The notes below the pieces were generated by a model. That model saw only the letters and a list, made by a program, of their open reading frames with translations, ran no database searches and was not told the DNA's origin. A stretch of 64,000 bases of DNA from Armatimonadota bacterium. Its GTDB lineage: Bacteria; Armatimonadota; Fimbriimonadia; Fimbriimonadales; Fimbriimonadaceae. Position numbers and translations under genes: made by a program. Positions 38,643 through 49,017 of the stretch are shown here, one piece after another. The stretch's first letter is position 1. Every line of letters begins with the position of its first letter. Where the stretch lies: NCBI GenBank assembly GCA_016125185.1, contig WGMG01000006.1, positions 1,612,001 to 1,676,000 on the forward strand. Reading direction: 5' to 3'.

Positions 38643-38959
38643 TGCTGCCCCAAAAATGAGGCAAGCGGGACCAATTTGGTCGCAACTTCGATTACCAATT
38701 ACTCTAGTGGAGCCTGGAACTCAATTGTTGTGTGTTTAGGTATTTCATTCAATGCGGTCTTCGGTCAAAGTCATTTTAGGATTTGACCACGCACATCTGA
38801 TAAGTGAAGTATTCGACCAAAGCCTTCCAAGGAAGTGAGAGCAAATTCTTACCTTCTTCTCTCTCTGACTTTGGAGTCTCCCTCGCTGGACGCGCCACTT
38901 CTCCCGCTCACAAAATTTCGAACCTTTCCGCCCCTCCCAACGTCTACATATCCTTGCCA
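38643..38959. other. Intergenic region before rtcB
   Basis: 317 bp. It contains GGTCAAA (38763-38769) and TTTGACC (38782-38788) as an inverted repeat with a 12-base gap, a possible operator, and a short palindrome GACCAATTTGGTC near 38670. An open frame in phase with rtcB runs back to 38804, but its composition is unlike the protein family, so I treat it as non-coding. Confidence 0.4.
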
Positions 38960-40117
38960 ATGAAGCTCATTGAGAACATTCCGTGTTGGGGCGATCCGGT
39001 TTTTCCGGAGGCCTTGCAACAACTCGACAACGCTCGAGCCACGGGTGCGGAGCGGTTGGCGCTGATGGCAGACCATCACGTCGGCTATGGCGTCCCCATC
39101 GGGGGCGTGGTGGCCTACAGACACCGAATCTCACCCAGTGGCGTCGGCTACGACATTGCCTGTGGCAATAAAGCCGTCCGGCTGGATGTAGACGCGATTA
39201 AGGTCAAAGCCAAGATCAATCCGATCATGGACGAGGTCTTTAAGAAGATCTCATTTGGCGTAGGACGCGCAAATAACGAAGACGTGGATCACGAACTCTT
39301 CGACGACGAAGCCTGGAAAATGAACCCGCTGAAAACTCTGAAAGAGAAAGCGAGGGCCCAGCTCGGAACCGTCGGGAGTGGAAACCACTACGTGGATATC
39401 TTTGAAGACGAGCAAAACCGAATCTGGGTTGGCGTGCATTTTGGTTCACGCGGACTTGGGCACGGCATTGCCCAGCACTTCATGGATATCGCGAAAGCAA
39501 ACGGCCAGACGGAGCACTTCATCTCCTGGCTGTCGACTGAGAAGTACGAGGGACAGGAGTACCTGGAAGCGATGCGAGTGGCAGGCGAATACGCCTACGC
39601 CGGCCGCGACTGGGTATGCGCCAAGGTCGCCAAGATCCTCGGTGGGAAGATTGTTGAGGAAGTCCACAACCATCACAACTTCGCATGGAAAGAGAATCAC
39701 GAAGGTCAGGAATTCTGGGTCGTACGCAAAGGGGCGACTCCGGCTTTCCCGGGCCAACGCGGATTCGTCGGCGGATCGATGGGTGACAATAGCGTGATCT
39801 TGGAAGGCGTCGATTCACCCGAGAGCCGAGAGGCGCTGTACTCGACCGTTCACGGCGCGGGTCGCGTGATGTCGCGAACGGCGGCCAAGGGTAAAGGCAA
39901 GGTCAAAGGTGCGGTCTCGAAAGAAGACATGCACAAGTGGATCAAACGGGAACAAGTCGTTCTTCGCGGGGCGGGAGTTGACGAAGCTCCCCTCGTGTAT
40001 AAGCGACTGCACCGGGTACTGGAGCACCACTCCAGTTCAGTAAAGATCATCCATACGCTGAAGCCGCTTGGCGTGGCGATGGCAGGTGGCGACACCTTCG
40101 ATCCTTACAAGGACTAG
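38960..40117 (+). CDS. rtcB: RtcB-family RNA ligase
   Basis: A 385-residue member of the RtcB family, which joins 2',3'-cyclic phosphate or 3'-phosphate RNA ends to 5'-OH using GTP and Mn. SPSGVGYDIACGNKAVRLD contains the metal-binding Asp and Cys. VHFGSRGLGHGI, HNHHNFAW and RKGATPAFPGQRGFVGGSMG, with the HGAGR motif (TVHGAGRVMSR, guanylylated His region), follow in the expected order. The ATG at 38960 is chosen because family homology starts with MKLIENIPCWG; no Shine-Dalgarno is seen. It follows a PIN-like gene. Confidence 0.92.
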   Translation: MKLIENIPCWGDPVFPEALQQLDNARATGAERLALMADHHVGYGVPIGGVVAYRHRISPSGVGYDIACGNKAVRLDVDAIKVKAKINPIMDEVFKKISFGVGRANNEDVDHELFDDEAWKMNPLKTLKEKARAQLGTVGSGNHYVDIFEDEQNRIWVGVHFGSRGLGHGIAQHFMDIAKANGQTEHFISWLSTEKYEGQEYLEAMRVAGEYAYAGRDWVCAKVAKILGGKIVEEVHNHHNFAWKENHEGQEFWVVRKGATPAFPGQRGFVGGSMGDNSVILEGVDSPESREALYSTVHGAGRVMSRTAAKGKGKVKGAVSKEDMHKWIKREQVVLRGAGVDEAPLVYKRLHRVLEHHSSSVKIIHTLKPLGVAMAGGDTFDPYKD

Positions 40118-40350: not shown

Positions 40351-43300
40351 CTACTTGGCCAACGCCAGCAGAATCCGGCGATGCCCGGCTTCCAACCGAG
40401 CCAGATTATTCCCGCTCAACAGAGCGTTCACATCCACTCCGGCGTTGCTCGACGCTATGGCCCGCCGCAATCCCTCGCGAACGCTATCCAAGAACTTCGG
40501 ATACTCCTTGTTTGTGATCTTGCCCGACTCGCGAGCATGAATGAACTCGAAGCATGCCTGTTGCATCTTGTCCACGCCGTCCAGCTTCGCCAGCGCCGGA
40601 CGAAGGAACAGCGCCCGTTGCCACCGCACCATCTGCAGAATGTCGGCCACGTCGCCGTTCATCAACTGCATCTGCGTCAGACGCGAGTCGATGCCGTTCA
40701 TCAGCGTCGCCATCGCCTGGATCATGGTCTCCGGCGTCGTCGCTTTGCCCGCCGCCGTGATCGCGGCAACCAGTCCAAACGGATCGGCGCCCGTCAGAGC
40801 CCCAGCCTTCTTCAGGTCGCTCGCCATCAGCGGTAGCGACTTCCCTTTCGTGAATGCCAGGTACGTCGCCCCATTCTTTGCCGCGCCGTCGAAATACTGA
40901 CTGGGAACCTTGACGCCGCCAAATCCCGCCGCCAAGCGCTCCAACTCCTGCTGTTGCGTATCCAGACTCTCGCGGATCGCTTGCTCCAAGGTGCCAGCCG
41001 TCACGCCAACCCCAAAGCTGCTCGCCGCTTGACCGGCCGCAAGCTCATCGACGCCGACAAAAGCCGTCGTCCCTTTTGGAACTCCGTTCGTCTGGACGTT
41101 CACTCGAACCCACCGGTTTTCGCCCGGCTCCATGCCCTTCAGCACAATGGATGAACCGGTCTTGACCGTGATTGGTCGCCCTTCGCGCTGACCCGCCACC
41201 TGGTACGAAATGCTTCTCACGTAGCGTCGCGAGAGCCCCGAAACGCTGATCTGGAGCGGAATATCGCGCCGCATCAGGCCCGCGTTATGGATGATCGCCC
41301 AGTCGCCGATGAGCCCAAACCCGCCGTGCGGAGCGTCAGTCGTCAGGTGCATGTTGCGTTGCGCCTTGTTGTTGTCGCTGATGATCCGAAGGTCGGTCCC
41401 CGTGCCCCATCCTGGCGTATTGCCCACCAAGGATGGCGCGACATACGGGTCCGACGGCGACGAGATTTCAACCGCCAAGCAAAGGTGATTGCCCGAGGTC
41501 GGCTCCAGGTGCCAGTGGCACGCATCCGTAATCCACGGCCCCGCCGTACCGTCCGTCGTCAAAACCGGATCGGGATCGATCGTCACGTTCGGGTCGGCCG
41601 ACGTGTTGTCCACATAGTTGCTTCCCGTCCCAAAGCGGGACACCAAGAAGTGGGCCGTCATGTTGGTCACCGGACCGCTGGTGTTGCGTCGAATCCGCGC
41701 AAACGCCCAATTATCGCCCGTCGAGCCCGAGCCGTTGCCCGCATCCTCGTTCGGCGGCTGATCGTTCACAAACGTTCCCGCCGTCGGACCCCGCCGATTC
41801 CACACGTCGCTAAACGAATAGAAGTTGCCATGGGTCGAAGGCTCCGCGCCATTGTCGCCATGAGTCGGATCATCGGTCCAGTCGCGCACATACACATCGT
41901 TGGACGGCGACGTCGTCTCGATCTCAAAGTAGTACGGATCGATCGAAGGCGCCACCGTCGTTGTGTGCGAAGCGTTGGTATACAACGTGTGCGTGGCCCA
42001 ATTCACCTCCCGATTGAACTGTACGCCTGGCATAAAGTTCGCCGTATCTGGGTAATTGCTGGCGCAGAACATCCCCATGAAGTTCTTCCCCGCCGCAAAC
42101 AGCGACGCGTAGTCGCCGATGTAAACGAGGTAGGTGGCCGAGGGAGTCGTCGCACTCTGGTTGCACATCGTAATGCCCGGAGTATTAAACGTCGTCGCAT
42201 CGGGGTCCGTAGTCTGCACAAAGTGTGTTTCCCATCGTCCCGAAACGACCCGCTGGTACAAACAGCCGACCGTCCCTTCGATGTTCACCGCCACGTGCGG
42301 GTTCATCGCGCTCGTCACCGTCAAGAGGTCTCCCGACCACGTTTGCCCACGATTCGTCGACCGGCGAACGTGGATCGTTTCCAGATTCGAACCTCCGCTA
42401 TCGCCGTACGCCAGGTACACGCGGTCGCTATTCCGAGGGTCGACGGAGATCGAAATATTGCTCGCTCCAAGCCGCTGTTGCCCCATATTGCCAGATGGCA
42501 AGGTCAACACCGGCGTAACGAATCGGCCGGCCACCGTGTCGCTAGGATCCTTCAAGATCGTAAATCCGCTTGCGCCGATGCCCCAGTTGTCATCGCGGAC
42601 CACGCAGATTCGCGGCGATGAGTTCCAGTTTCCGTAGAAAGCCGCGTAAACCGTCCCGTCGTGATGCGGCGCGGGAACCTCGGCGAAGCCGTCTTGTCCA
42701 CCCGTGTCACGATGCTGAATCAGGTTCAGCGCAAAACTCGCCGCCCCGACTTTGGCGTCCTGAGAGATGTCGAGCGTGGCCGTGCGGCCATTCGGAATCA
42801 CACCGCCCCATCCGTTATTAAAGCCGACGTACAGTTTGTCCTCGCCGCCAAACACCGAAGTCGCCGACAGCACATGTGGCTGATCGACGTTACCGCTCCG
42901 CGTATCCAAAACCGTCATCGGCGTCGCCGAGTACGCATTTTGAGACCGCAGAACCACCATCGGCAGACCCGAAGTCGCCGTGCTGAGGATGCCCCCATAC
43001 AACCAGCTCACGTCCGTCCCCGATCCGCCAAGGGTCGAGCTGAAGTTGAGCTGGATATCTCCCGTGCAAAATCCCCCGACCTTGCTCGGCACAATGAACG
43101 AAAGCGTCCACGTGTTGCCGCGGTCAGTCGAAACGTAGATCGGCGCCAGGCTACCCGTCATCGTCGATCCCGCCAGGTTGTCCCACGTAAAGGCGCTTCC
43201 CGCCAAACGGGCGTAGTTGTTCGGGTCGATCGCCAATGTCGGTTCACAGTCGCAGTTGGTTTCCGCGCTCCGGTTGTTCGGCGTCATATTGATCAATCGA

Positions 43301-43362
43301 TTCTGGGCGAGCCCTAGGCTCGGAATCAGAGTCAATAGGCTAATCGCATGCAGACGTTTCAT
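40351..43362 (-). CDS. Large secreted protein with BNR/sialidase-like repeats
   Basis: A 1003-residue exported protein. The signal peptide is MKRLHAISLLTLIPSLGLAQ. The N-terminal 450 residues contain Asp-box-like BNR repeats (APIYVSTDRGNTWTLSF and HVRRSTNRGQTWSGDL), typical of beta-propeller sialidase-like folds, though no full catalytic set is apparent. The C-terminal 250 residues are helical with no known motif. AAGGAG lies 8 bases before the ATG. The start overlaps the stop of the upstream gene (43359-43362), so both are one operon. A surface or extracellular role is likely. Confidence 0.85.
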   Translation of the reverse strand: MKRLHAISLLTLIPSLGLAQNRLINMTPNNRSAETNCDCEPTLAIDPNNYARLAGSAFTWDNLAGSTMTGSLAPIYVSTDRGNTWTLSFIVPSKVGGFCTGDIQLNFSSTLGGSGTDVSWLYGGILSTATSGLPMVVLRSQNAYSATPMTVLDTRSGNVDQPHVLSATSVFGGEDKLYVGFNNGWGGVIPNGRTATLDISQDAKVGAASFALNLIQHRDTGGQDGFAEVPAPHHDGTVYAAFYGNWNSSPRICVVRDDNWGIGASGFTILKDPSDTVAGRFVTPVLTLPSGNMGQQRLGASNISISVDPRNSDRVYLAYGDSGGSNLETIHVRRSTNRGQTWSGDLLTVTSAMNPHVAVNIEGTVGCLYQRVVSGRWETHFVQTTDPDATTFNTPGITMCNQSATTPSATYLVYIGDYASLFAAGKNFMGMFCASNYPDTANFMPGVQFNREVNWATHTLYTNASHTTTVAPSIDPYYFEIETTSPSNDVYVRDWTDDPTHGDNGAEPSTHGNFYSFSDVWNRRGPTAGTFVNDQPPNEDAGNGSGSTGDNWAFARIRRNTSGPVTNMTAHFLVSRFGTGSNYVDNTSADPNVTIDPDPVLTTDGTAGPWITDACHWHLEPTSGNHLCLAVEISSPSDPYVAPSLVGNTPGWGTGTDLRIISDNNKAQRNMHLTTDAPHGGFGLIGDWAIIHNAGLMRRDIPLQISVSGLSRRYVRSISYQVAGQREGRPITVKTGSSIVLKGMEPGENRWVRVNVQTNGVPKGTTAFVGVDELAAGQAASSFGVGVTAGTLEQAIRESLDTQQQELERLAAGFGGVKVPSQYFDGAAKNGATYLAFTKGKSLPLMASDLKKAGALTGADPFGLVAAITAAGKATTPETMIQAMATLMNGIDSRLTQMQLMNGDVADILQMVRWQRALFLRPALAKLDGVDKMQQACFEFIHARESGKITNKEYPKFLDSVREGLRRAIASSNAGVDVNALLSGNNLARLEAGHRRILLALAK

Positions 43363-44501: not shown

Positions 44502-44527
44502 GTTATCCCCAGCTACCTGTGGAAAAC
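44502..44527. promoter_or_regulatory. Palindrome upstream of structured RNA 1
   Basis: GTTATCCCCA and TGTGGAAAAC separated by 6 bases, centred at 44514.5, which is 63.5 bp before the predicted start of RNA 1. It is a degenerate version of the perfect palindrome at 45327-45354. Confidence 0.7.
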
Positions 44528-44565
44528 ATGATGATTTTGTTAGCGCGATTGGCGTACCGCACACC

Positions 44566-44571
44566 TATAAT
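44566..44571 (+). promoter_or_regulatory. -10 element of structured RNA 1
   Basis: A perfect TATAAT seven bases before the predicted G start of RNA 1. The -35 region is poor (GCGCGA at 17-bp spacing), unlike those of RNAs 2 and 3, suggesting dependence on an activator at the upstream palindrome. Confidence 0.65.
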
Positions 44572-44577
44572 AATCAT

Positions 44578-44790
44578 GTCTCTCGTGCACAGCCTTCGGG
44601 CTCCTAAGACGCGAAAGACAGAGAGCCAGGATTCGGATGCTTCGGCAAAAGAATGCGATGCTCGTATTCCTTCGGTTGAAGGAAAAAGTCTTTCAGGTGG
44701 CTGATTTCGATCGGCCACCGAAAAGGACGAGATTTGGGACTCTGTCACAGTAGCCGAAAGGCAGCTTGGGTAGAGTCCCTTATTCATTTT
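44578..44790 (+). ncRNA. Structured RNA 1 of a three-member tandem family
   Basis: About 210 nt beginning GUCUCUCG. No protein-coding frame is plausible. The 3' domain is shared with the two RNAs downstream: AAGUCUUU, then a 10-bp hairpin with a UUCG loop (44696-44719), a complementary AAAAGGAC strand, and a terminal stem GGGACUCU/AGAGUCCC enclosing a GCC-GAAA-GGC hairpin, followed by a U-rich tail (TTATTCATTTTT) resembling an intrinsic terminator. The 5' part has an AGCC-UUCG-GGCU hairpin. The three copies differ in sequence but keep the pairings. I know of no family that fits. Confidence 0.78.
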
Positions 44791-44812
44791 TGCGAACCCT
44801 TCTTTCGGTAGC

Positions 44813-44839
44813 AGTTATGCACATAACATGGGGATAACT
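44813..44839. promoter_or_regulatory. Palindrome upstream of structured RNA 2
   Basis: AGTTATGCACA and TGGGGATAACT separated by 5 bases, centred at 44826, 63 bp before the predicted start of RNA 2. The left half contains TTATGCACA, a match to the DnaA-box consensus TTATNCACA. Confidence 0.75.
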
Positions 44840-44853
44840 TAGCGCAATTCTTC

Positions 44854-44882
44854 TTGTTAATTTTCAATATGCATCGTATAGT
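44854..44882 (+). promoter_or_regulatory. Promoter of structured RNA 2
   Basis: TTGTTA (44854-44859), 17-bp spacer, TATAGT (44877-44882). It predicts a start at the G of GUCUCC, 44889. Confidence 0.78.
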
Positions 44883-44888
44883 AAAGAT

Positions 44889-45120
44889 GTCTCCAGCAGA
44901 CGGCCTCGGCCAGAAGCAAACGGAGGCACCGCCTTCAGTGAGAGACTTCGGTCAGACCATGTAAGTAGGGCAACCGTCTTCCGAGATCGACTTCGGTAGG
45001 TTCAAAGAAGACAAAAGTCTTTGAGGTGGTTAGCTTCGGCTAGCCACCGTAAAAGACGAACATTTTGGGGTTCTGCAACCAAAGCCGAAAGGCGACGGAG
45101 GTAGAGCCCCTTAATTGTCT
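44889..45120 (+). ncRNA. Structured RNA 2 of the tandem family
   Basis: About 230 nt beginning GUCUCCAG. It has the same 3' architecture as RNA 1: AAGUCUUU, UUCG-capped 10-bp hairpin (45025-45048), AAAAGAC strand, then GGGGUUCU (45067-45074) pairing with AGAGCCCC (45103-45110) around GCC-GAAA-GGC, and a UUAAUUGUCUU tail. The 5' half holds GGCC-containing and GAC-UUCG-GUC hairpins, and CUCC can pair with GGAG. Compensatory changes relative to RNAs 1 and 3 support the fold. Confidence 0.8.
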
Positions 45121-45326
45121 TGAGAATTCCCAATCATTCAAGGATATAGAACTATCCACATACTATGTGGATAACTATTGGAACATTGATTTCACATCGA
45201 TGCGCCCTAGGAAACCCGAATCTTTAGATCGCAAAATCCTTGCGACGCCGATCACTCGTTTGCGTCTTACACTCTGCCGGTAAGGCGAGCTTTCTTTCAT
45301 GTAAGCCGGGCGCAACTAACCCTTTT
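45121..45326. other. Spacer between RNA 2 and RNA 3 with an orphan palindrome
   Basis: No gene is seen. It contains the palindrome at 45150-45176 and, near 45280-45292, GCCGGTAAGGCGAGC, which recalls the GCCGAAAGGCGAC hairpin of the RNAs. This may be the relic of a further copy, but no promoter lies at the expected distance. Confidence 0.4.
45150..45176. promoter_or_regulatory. Orphan palindrome of the RNA-associated family
   Basis: AACTATCCACA and TGTGGATAACT separated by 5 bases. The right half holds a perfect DnaA-box 9-mer (TGTGGATAA). No -10 element occurs at the 51-bp distance seen for the other three palindromes, in either direction. Confidence 0.65.
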
Positions 45327-45354
45327 AGTTATCCACACTAATTTGTGGATAACT
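45327..45354. promoter_or_regulatory. Perfect palindrome upstream of structured RNA 3
   Basis: AGTTATCCACA and TGTGGATAACT, 11-bp perfect arms with a 6-base spacer, centred at 45340.5, 63.5 bp before the predicted start of RNA 3. Both halves contain the exact DnaA-box 9-mer TTATCCACA. The geometry equals that of a class I activator site. Confidence 0.82.
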
Positions 45355-45368
45355 TCGCGAATCTTTTC

Positions 45369-45397
45369 TTGTTTTCTAAGAATTAATGTCGTATAGT
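45369..45397 (+). promoter_or_regulatory. Promoter of structured RNA 3
   Basis: TTGTTT (45369-45374), 17-bp spacer, TATAGT (45392-45397). It predicts a start at the G of GUCUCC, 45404. Spacing from palindrome to -35 (14 bp) equals that of RNA 2. Confidence 0.78.
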
Positions 45398-45403
45398 ATT
45401 AAT

Positions 45404-45690
45404 GTCTCCGGTGGAGAGCTTCGGCAGGAAACCAGGGGCGAGTCGCCTTTAGATCAGATTTCGGTCAGATCCACAGATAGGGCGGCAGCCGGAAGGCGCG
45501 GAGTTTCGACAAGGCGCAACATGGCAAAACCCGCTTTTGCTCGCTGGCTTCGGCCCGTGAGCCCTAGACAGGCGGAAAAAAGTTCTTGAAGGCGCTTAGC
45601 TTCGGCTAGGCGCCGAAGAGAGCTAAATTTTGGGGTTCCGTCAGGATCGTCGAAAGGCGACTCAGGCGGGACCCCTTAATTCTGTTTGAG
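45404..45690 (+). ncRNA. Structured RNA 3 of the tandem family (longest)
   Basis: About 285 nt beginning GUCUCCGG. The 3' domain is shared with RNAs 1 and 2: AAGUUCUU, a 10-bp hairpin with UUCG loop (45591-45614), AAGAGAGCU, then GGGGUUCC (45632-45639) pairing with GGGACCCC (45668-45675) around GUCG-AAAGG-CGAC, and a UUAAUUCUGUUU tail. Relative to RNA 2, the hairpin stem changes T-A to C-G and G-C to C-G at two positions with pairing kept. An extra 60-70 nt of hairpins in the middle makes it longer. It ends just before a convergent gene at 45692. Confidence 0.8.
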
Positions 45691-45691
45691 C

Positions 45692-46267
45692 CTAGGCTAC
45701 TACTTGCGATTGCGCCTCGCGTAGTAGCTCCAGAACCCCGAAGTGCTCAGCCCAGCGAGTCATGTACGCCTCGTCCAAGTCCTCTCCCTGAGTCTCCAAC
45801 ACCTGCACAATATCGTTCCATTGACGATCGCTGACCTTATTCCCCAGAACAAACCATCTTAGCTTCGTGATCACGATGTCTTCGGGAGACGCGAACGGTA
45901 ACGACTTTCCCGGCAGGAATTCGACCCATCGCTTCCGCTCTAATTGCCCTCTGGAATATTCGTCGTGGGGCAAAAGGAAGATGTCGAACTTATCCAGCGT
46001 CTCTCCATGCAGAATCTGACCCGCCGCAAACTCCTGGCGCCCTTTCAGAGATTCCCGCATGAGTTCGGCGTCGATCACGTAGGGCCACTCGAAAGCCTCT
46101 TCCAGGAGGTCGATCTGTTCAACAGACAAAGAAGCCGCAATGTCCACGTCGCGAGTATTGCGCTCCTGCCCCCAAACAGAACTCGCCATCGACCCGCCGA
46201 TCACAAAATCCACGCCAGCGGTCTGGAGCTTCTCGACCACCTCGAATAGGGTCTCGAAAATGGTCAC
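45692..46267 (-). CDS. Nucleotidyltransferase-like protein (DUF6036/AbiEii-type)
   Basis: A 191-residue protein of the nucleotidyltransferase superfamily. VDFVIGGSMASSVWG near 18-32 and TRDVDIAASL near 37-46 match the GG(S) and D-x-D signature of MNT/AbiEii-like proteins. The region after GLRWFVLGNKVSDRQWNDIV (here KLRWFVLG) is typical of the DUF6036 group often found in toxin-antitoxin-like pairs. I chose GTG 46267, because it overlaps the stop of a small upstream gene (GTGA) and removes a composition-poor N-terminal extension present from a TTG at 46345. Confidence 0.75.
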   Translation of the reverse strand: MTIFETLFEVVEKLQTAGVDFVIGGSMASSVWGQERNTRDVDIAASLSVEQIDLLEEAFEWPYVIDAELMRESLKGRQEFAAGQILHGETLDKFDIFLLPHDEYSRGQLERKRWVEFLPGKSLPFASPEDIVITKLRWFVLGNKVSDRQWNDIVQVLETQGEDLDEAYMTRWAEHFGVLELLREAQSQVVA

Positions 46268-46425
46268 TCGGGCCGGTACTTCCTTGTCGTCTCCCGAACG
46301 ACCTTCATGCCCGCCATCAGCTCCAAAGTCTTTTTCAGACGCCAAGAAGGGCCCTTTTCACGCGAAAGCCGAACCCGAGCCCGGTGCATCTCGATCGACG
46401 TATCCTGTAGGTCCGTCCGCTTCAC
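46264..46425 (-). CDS. Small protein coupled to the nucleotidyltransferase-like gene
   Basis: A 53-residue product starting at a GTG (46425) and ending in TGA that overlaps the GTG of the next gene (46264-46267). The sequence (TDLQDTSIEMHRARVRL... then LKKTLELMAGMKVVRETT) resembles short helical proteins that commonly precede DUF6036-type nucleotidyltransferases. A TATAAT (minus strand, 46437-46432) lies 6 bases before the GTG, so the transcript would start on the GTG itself and be leaderless. Overlap and promoter support it as a true gene despite its length. Confidence 0.68.
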   Translation of the reverse strand: MKRTDLQDTSIEMHRARVRLSREKGPSWRLKKTLELMAGMKVVRETTRKYRPE

Positions 46426-48555: not shown

Positions 48556-49017
48556 TTACGGAGCGTTCGCCACATACAGACCGGGGTACTCGCCCGGCTC
48601 TTCGGCTAGTTCGTTGTCTACCGGCGACTCCAAAATCTTTGTCCAGAACTCCTCAAATTCCGCATCGTCCCGAATGATCCGGTCATAGCTTTCCTCGTAA
48701 AACGGTGGCCACCGCTCGCCCGTCTTCTTCACGATTCCTTTGCCCGTCTTCGTCTTCGCCTTCTCCACGATGTCGCTCAGTTCGTTGCCCTCCTCGACCC
48801 TAAACATTAGCTCTGTCTGGTTGGGTAGCACGCAGGCGATGATGAGGTCCCACTTCCGCCCATCCGGGCGGAGCAGATTGGAGAGTAACCGATTCCGCTC
48901 CTCGTCCGATAAGTCGCGCCGATGTCGAAAAGTCACGTAGTAAACGACGTTATCGGCCCGCCAATGCGGCAACCGGCCTCGCCAAATCGAAAAGTTCTCC
49001 CATCGCTTGCCCGCCAT
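48556..49017 (-). CDS. REP-associated transposase-like protein without HUH motif
   Basis: A 153-residue protein of the Y1_Tnp/RAYT family shape: LPHWRADNVVYYVTFRHRR opening, LLRPDGRKWDLIIACVLPNQTELMF in the middle and EESYDRIIRDDAEFEEFWTKILESPV..L.EEP.EYPG at the end. In active members the middle motif is MPNHVHLL, whose two His bind metal; here it is LPNQTELM, so both His are gone. The Tyr in ESYDRIIRD remains. This implies loss of DNA nicking, and it is either domesticated or decaying. REP-like repeats elsewhere in the window could be its former substrates. Confidence 0.85.
   Translation of the reverse strand: MAGKRWENFSIWRGRLPHWRADNVVYYVTFRHRRDLSDEERNRLLSNLLRPDGRKWDLIIACVLPNQTELMFRVEEGNELSDIVEKAKTKTGKGIVKKTGERWPPFYEESYDRIIRDDAEFEEFWTKILESPVDNELAEEPGEYPGLYVANAP

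Follow-up and report, generated by a model that had tools for sequence, protein, structure and literature searches.

The window analysed here, a 64,000-nucleotide stretch of the genome of an Armatimonadota bacterium, carries three tandem RNA genes, R1, R2 and R3, with predicted promoters and upstream palindromes (Table 1). A sequence-only reading had described three paralogous segments within 44502-45690, each beginning with GUCUCY. Re-reading the sequence gave the same coordinates and starts, and likewise the UUCG-capped 10-bp hairpin, the outer helix of the AAGUCUUU/AAAAGAC type and the three terminal stems. The U-rich tails reported earlier held in part: the ends are moderately U-rich only, and no intrinsic terminator was called by pattern in the window copies. 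No reading frame stays open along the copies, thus a protein-coding reading was dropped. tRNA apart, no Rfam 15 family reached its gathering threshold in the window, and a permissive run on the segment returned chance matches only (best E 1.4 and 9.8). Folding, Rfam, covariance-model and covariation tests together uphold the claim of tandem paralogous structured RNAs with covariation that belong to no known family. On this sequence evidence we regard it as near certain that R1-R3 are real structured RNA genes of a new family. The upstream palindromes, a common promoter spacing, a common 5' P1 domain and homologues in other genomes are additions to the earlier description.

Table 1. Predicted RNA genes, control elements and neighbouring genes of the locus, in window coordinates.
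Feature	Coordinates	Strand	Description
RtcB RNA ligase	38804..40117	+	same strand as the RNAs; other border of the locus
R1 palindrome	44503..44526	.	TTATCCCCA-N6-TGTGGAAAA; centre 63.5 bp before first G
R1 -10 element	44566..44571	+	TATAAT, without a good -35 at 17 bp
RNA gene R1	44578..44790	+	about 213 nt; 5' domain GUCU..AGAC with nested hairpin, middle hairpins, T hairpin
R1 terminal stem			GGGACUCU/AGAGUCCC
R2 palindrome	44815..44837	.	TTATGCACA-N5-TGGGGATAA; centre 63.0 bp before first G
R2 promoter	44854..44882	+	TTGTTA-17-TATAGT
RNA gene R2	44889..45120	+	about 232 nt; 5' domain GUCUCC/GGAGGC, middle module GCCUU..AGGGC, T hairpin
R2 terminal stem			GGGGUUCU/AGAGCCCC
Solo palindrome	45152..45174	.	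CTATCCACA-N5-TGTGGATAA; no promoter or RNA 63 bp downstream
R3 palindrome	45329..45352	.	TTATCCACA-N6-TGTGGATAA; centre 63.5 bp before first G
R3 promoter	45369..45397	+	TTGTTT-17-TATAGT
RNA gene R3	45404..45690	+	about 287 nt; 5' domain GUCUC/GGGGC, middle module GCCUUUAG..CACAGAUAGGGC, extra hairpins, T hairpin
R3 terminal stem			GGGGUUCC/GGGACCCC
Nucleotidyltransferase-like gene	45692..46345	-	weak DUF2204; convergent to R3; adjoins the array in all three species
RAYT-like protein	48556..49017	-	NCBIfam NF047646, E 2.8e-9, under the curated cut-off

We examined the stability and conservation of the folds. R1, R2 and R3 each fold more stably than 200 of 200 dinucleotide shuffles (z -4.3, -4.55 and -3.85, respectively). 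Across eight copies of the 3' domain from three species, standard pairs occupy 93.8% of cells, compared with 86.1% in shuffles (0/500); pairing is nearly always kept, and not strictly always, which is how the sequence-only reading had put it. Changes on both sides of a pair occur in at least one of the eight copies at 16 of 33 pairs, compared with 7.2 in shuffles (0/500), a count that does not represent independent events because the copies are kin. The covariation score of the same copies is 0.458 versus 0.290 in shuffles (0/500), and sliding the partners by 1-3 columns as a control lowers pairing to 35-53%. Covariation was also computed on seven copies; both the seven- and the eight-copy pair counts rest on an alignment with light edits to the seed rows of three copies: one base was taken out of the R3 internal loop, and the G002 copies entered the model seed minus their extra hairpins. 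Genome searches ran with natural, unedited sequence. Within one helix, exchanges of U-A for C-G, of G-C for U-A and C-G, and of A-U for G-C are difficult to account for unless the strands pair.

Each RNA is a string of capped hairpins with constant 5' and 3' ends and a variable middle, and the lengths, about 171 to 378 nt, vary because middle modules are added or missing. Starting from the first G, the 5' domain consists of helix P1, then a short inner helix and a capped hairpin. P1 is formed by GUCUC/GAGAC, GUCUCC/GGAGGC, GUCUC/GGGGC, GUCC/GGAC or GUCUUC/GAAGAC among the copies. This domain folds alone in 6 of 7 excised copies; the exception is R1, whose excerpt ended at the wrong AGAC, and P1 does form in the full-length R1 fold. 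The middle module GCCUUUAG-hairpin-CACAGAUAGGGC adopts the same fold in five instances, two of them inside one RNA of G009, and the 3' end is made of the T hairpin and the terminal stem. As to the stem that the 5' and 3' ends close in bacterial Y RNAs, both ends are separate domains in most minimum free energy (MFE) folds, and a cross-pairing test was non-discriminating. The capping tetraloops GAAA, GCAA and UUCG interchange freely, therefore they look like caps and are probably not recognition sites. The sequence CAAA occurs 33 times, compared with 16.7 in shuffles (0/300), and is unpaired in 27 of the 33 occurrences in MFE folds.

When 60 relatives were searched at the DNA level, two from the same genus, G002 and G009, proved to carry similar arrays; they are two other species (uncultured Fimbriimonas relatives), and their arrays likewise sit at the RtcB / L9 locus. 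The 3'-domain covariance model (A4) recovered both arrays and gave no convincing match elsewhere in 85 family genomes or 291 phylum genomes, so that the claim of a new family also withstood the phylum-wide search. A second model, built with one copy more, led to the same result across 113 order genomes. Because filtering was strict and a limited number of candidates per genome was scored, very diverged relatives could escape these searches. Weak model matches in G070 and G029 were single hairpins or partial fits and were not accepted. Scanning 84,980 species genomes with a pattern yielded two records only, G009 (uncultured Fimbriimonas sp. MAG) and G002 (Armatimonadetes MAG), and the viral, phage and plasmid collections searched gave no match. 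The RNAs are absent from sister species at the L9 and RtcB loci, and the family occurs in 3 of 20 genomes of the genus, each species having two to about four members.

The nine copies that we read comprise the three of the window, two of G002 and four of G009, of which three are complete and one is cut by a contig end. A 3' fragment at the opposite contig end of G009 may belong to the cut copy. The most diverged copy, L022:242-412 of G009, was found only as a weak model match, yet it keeps the whole plan: it opens with GUCUCU/AGAGAC, its T hairpin still pairs although the sequence is altogether different, and UUUUU comes after its terminal stem. As the family is limited to three related species, functional links are inseparable from shared descent.

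The palindrome TTATCCACA-N5/6-TGTGGATAA, with at most 2 mismatches, lies upstream of 8 of the 9 copies in the three species, its centre always falling 63.0 or 63.5 bp ahead of the first RNA base. The R3 palindrome is the only exact match in its genome, and the exact palindrome of G002 also occurs once, at the array. One G009 copy resembles R1 in having TATAAT without a good -35. This fixed geometry of palindrome and promoter argues for separate, co-regulated transcription units and not for leaders or riboswitches, and judging from it, co-regulation of the RNA genes through the palindrome is very likely. One DNA-binding protein on the palindrome, either DnaA or a dedicated regulator, would switch all copies on or off together, presumably acting like an activator that sits upstream of the -35. 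Two cases run counter to a shared switch, namely the G009 copy at L022:242, which lacks the palindrome, and the solo palindrome at 45152, which lacks an RNA. The sequence that follows the solo palindrome (45175-45325) is weakly similar to R3, 13 of 200 shuffles scoring as well; the palindrome is possibly the front of a decayed fourth copy.

The palindrome half-site is the canonical DnaA box TTATCCACA; TTATGCACA, seen once, and TTTTCCACA, seen twice, depart from it but agree with the degenerate DnaA box TTWTNCACA. Hence the RNAs might be under DnaA control, their dose tracking the replication cycle, or the array might double as a DnaA-titration locus. The exact box occurs 3 times in 941 bp of the array and 0 times in the other 232 kb of the genome examined. 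However, the 169-kb contig that carries dnaA holds zero exact boxes, and an ordinary dimeric regulator would equally fit the fixed position and the near-fixed 5-6 bp spacing. DnaA boxes in the dnaA contig and in one sampled relative are too rare to decide, and we hold control by DnaA to be unlikely. Still less likely is the fuller scheme in which modular RNAs under DnaA control would couple the level of an RNA-binding protein, or of what it targets, to the replication cycle, the dose being tuned by the number of copies and modules.

We favor, tentatively, an array of three separately transcribed genes under a shared switch, whose products would be trans-acting, multivalent, protein-binding regulatory RNAs. 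That the RNAs act in trans is probable; that they bind protein multivalently is a possibility we rate lower, at about one chance in three, and the assignment of function as a whole is weakly supported. The repeated sites offered to a protein would be the A-rich CAAA linkers and the internal loops that separate stable capped hairpins, and the RNAs would titrate or scaffold that protein in trans, while gains and losses of gene copies and internal modules would tune dose and valency. If the RNAs do offer several repeated sites, this would account for the gain and loss of copies and modules. We prefer a protein-binding regulator because of the stable capped hairpins, the A-rich linkers, the variable module number and the shared regulation, and because the main alternatives failed tests or lack support. 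As a counter-point, the linkers may be neutral spacers.

The Rsm/Csr RNAs (RsmX, RsmY, RsmZ and CsrB) are paralogous intergenic strings of hairpins, several to a genome, with a common palindromic upstream site (PMC2375449). Each RNA of the window has its own predicted promoter and palindromic upstream site, a likeness in arrangement only, since the palindrome sequence differs and the RNAs have no sequence kinship. Moreover, ANGGA occurs 9 times in the nine RNAs, rarer than the 14.2 of shuffles, and its core is unpaired in none of the copies in MFE folds; a CsrB/Rsm sponge is therefore not supported. STAXI, chiefly a repeated pseudoknot close to DNA-handling genes (PMC2864571), and other candidate motifs from comparative genomics are likewise tandem structured units found by covariation with an unexplained role, but STAXI itself consists mainly of pseudoknot repeats, and the RNAs here have no Rfam match.

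The RNAs could instead be sibling small RNAs whose linkers, or a GUCUY strand freed from its helix, pair with target mRNAs. Independent promoters, unpaired linkers and several copies with diverged middles suit such pairing. On the other hand, almost all of the sequence lies within stable capped helices, no long unpaired seed is conserved across copies, and the conserved CAAA linker is too short for specificity; we give this explanation roughly one chance in five.

The genes around the array bear on three further explanations. In all three species the nucleotidyltransferase that abuts the array is followed by L9 and a Mce gene, with RtcB across the array from them. In G001 and G018, sisters that lack the RNAs, RtcB is elsewhere and L9 is followed by an unrelated convergent gene. 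That gene (L093, L094) encodes a 724-aa thioredoxin/TPR-like protein and stands in the array's place. Between RtcB and the array, the window encodes a 1003-aa protein with no Pfam match (40351-43362, minus strand); this interval is variable, and G002 and G009 carry different genes there.

Toxins are known among nucleotidyltransferases of the same fold, and this gene stands tail-to-tail with R3, next to the array in every RNA-bearing species. The RNAs might thus be a type III-like antitoxin, or an antisense control, of the gene, and like ToxI and TenpI they are repeated structured units next to a protein gene. Type III antitoxins, however, are tandem repeats on the same strand, upstream of the toxin, whereas the neighbour here is convergent, on the opposite strand, the RNAs have their own promoters, and the nucleotidyltransferase matches no defence or toxin family. 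In addition, G007, G012 and G004 carry homologues of the gene yet lack the RNAs, and the gene was dropped as an obligate partner. We consider a role as antitoxin or antisense control improbable.

In diverse bacteria the genes for RtcB, Rsr and Y RNAs lie next to one another (PMC7790460), and as RtcB borders the locus, the RNAs might be Y RNA-like partners of RNA repair. Like YrlA and the Deinococcus Y RNA they are multi-module non-coding RNAs close to RtcB, and the G009 copy L022:242-412 starts about 160 bp past the RtcB stop, directly downstream. Against this, there are zero matches to Rfam Y RNA families and no adjacent rsr; Ro60/Rsr (TROVE) is found in G000 and G009, with no match in the RNA-bearing G002 (a 98% complete genome), and several TROVE-bearing genomes lack the RNAs. 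G000 has TROVE and RtcB on different contigs. In L065 and L066 (G004 and G007) and in G003:C7, about 1 kb or less separates RtcB from a TROVE (Ro60-like) gene. A Y RNA-like role is, if anything, slightly less credible than an antitoxin.

The RAYT-like gene lies beside Mce in the three RNA-bearing species and in 0 of 16 RNA-less genomes of the genus, a co-occurrence that is a single coincidence of descent because the three species form one clade. Its product, 78-79% identical among the species and encoded 3 bp from a PII-like gene, differs from an annotated transposase by HVH to QTE and YILENPV to KILESPV (tyrosine to lysine), which suggests loss of the catalytic residues; the protein is probably a domesticated transposase without catalytic activity. 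A role as hairpin-binding partner of the RNAs is speculative. The AlphaFold model of the protein (pLDDT 34) was set aside. The array itself, being clade-restricted, tandem, hairpin-rich and 3 kb from this RAYT relative, could be remnant or passenger DNA of a mobile element, akin to REP/RAYT-type hairpin repeats, but compensatory changes, a constant promoter geometry and confinement of the copies to one locus make this the least probable of the explanations weighed, and REPs usually exceed 100 copies per genome (PMC2817692). A riboswitch or leader is not supported, as R3 and its counterparts end against a convergent gene with no same-strand gene downstream, and neither is a housekeeping RNA (6S, SRP, RNase P or tmRNA), given the absence of an Rfam match and the restriction of the family to so few genomes of the genus.

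A literature search for non-coding RNAs of Armatimonadota, a little-studied phylum, found nothing. The family described here is compact and testable, with defined predicted 5' ends, a control site common to its members at one locus, and modules that have visibly come and gone. If the RNAs are truly a multivalent protein sponge, they would be a CsrB-like solution with different binding sites, and if DnaA control is true, they would link replication to RNA regulation. The restriction to three species offers an example of how an elaborate RNA family is gained, or lost, inside a genus.
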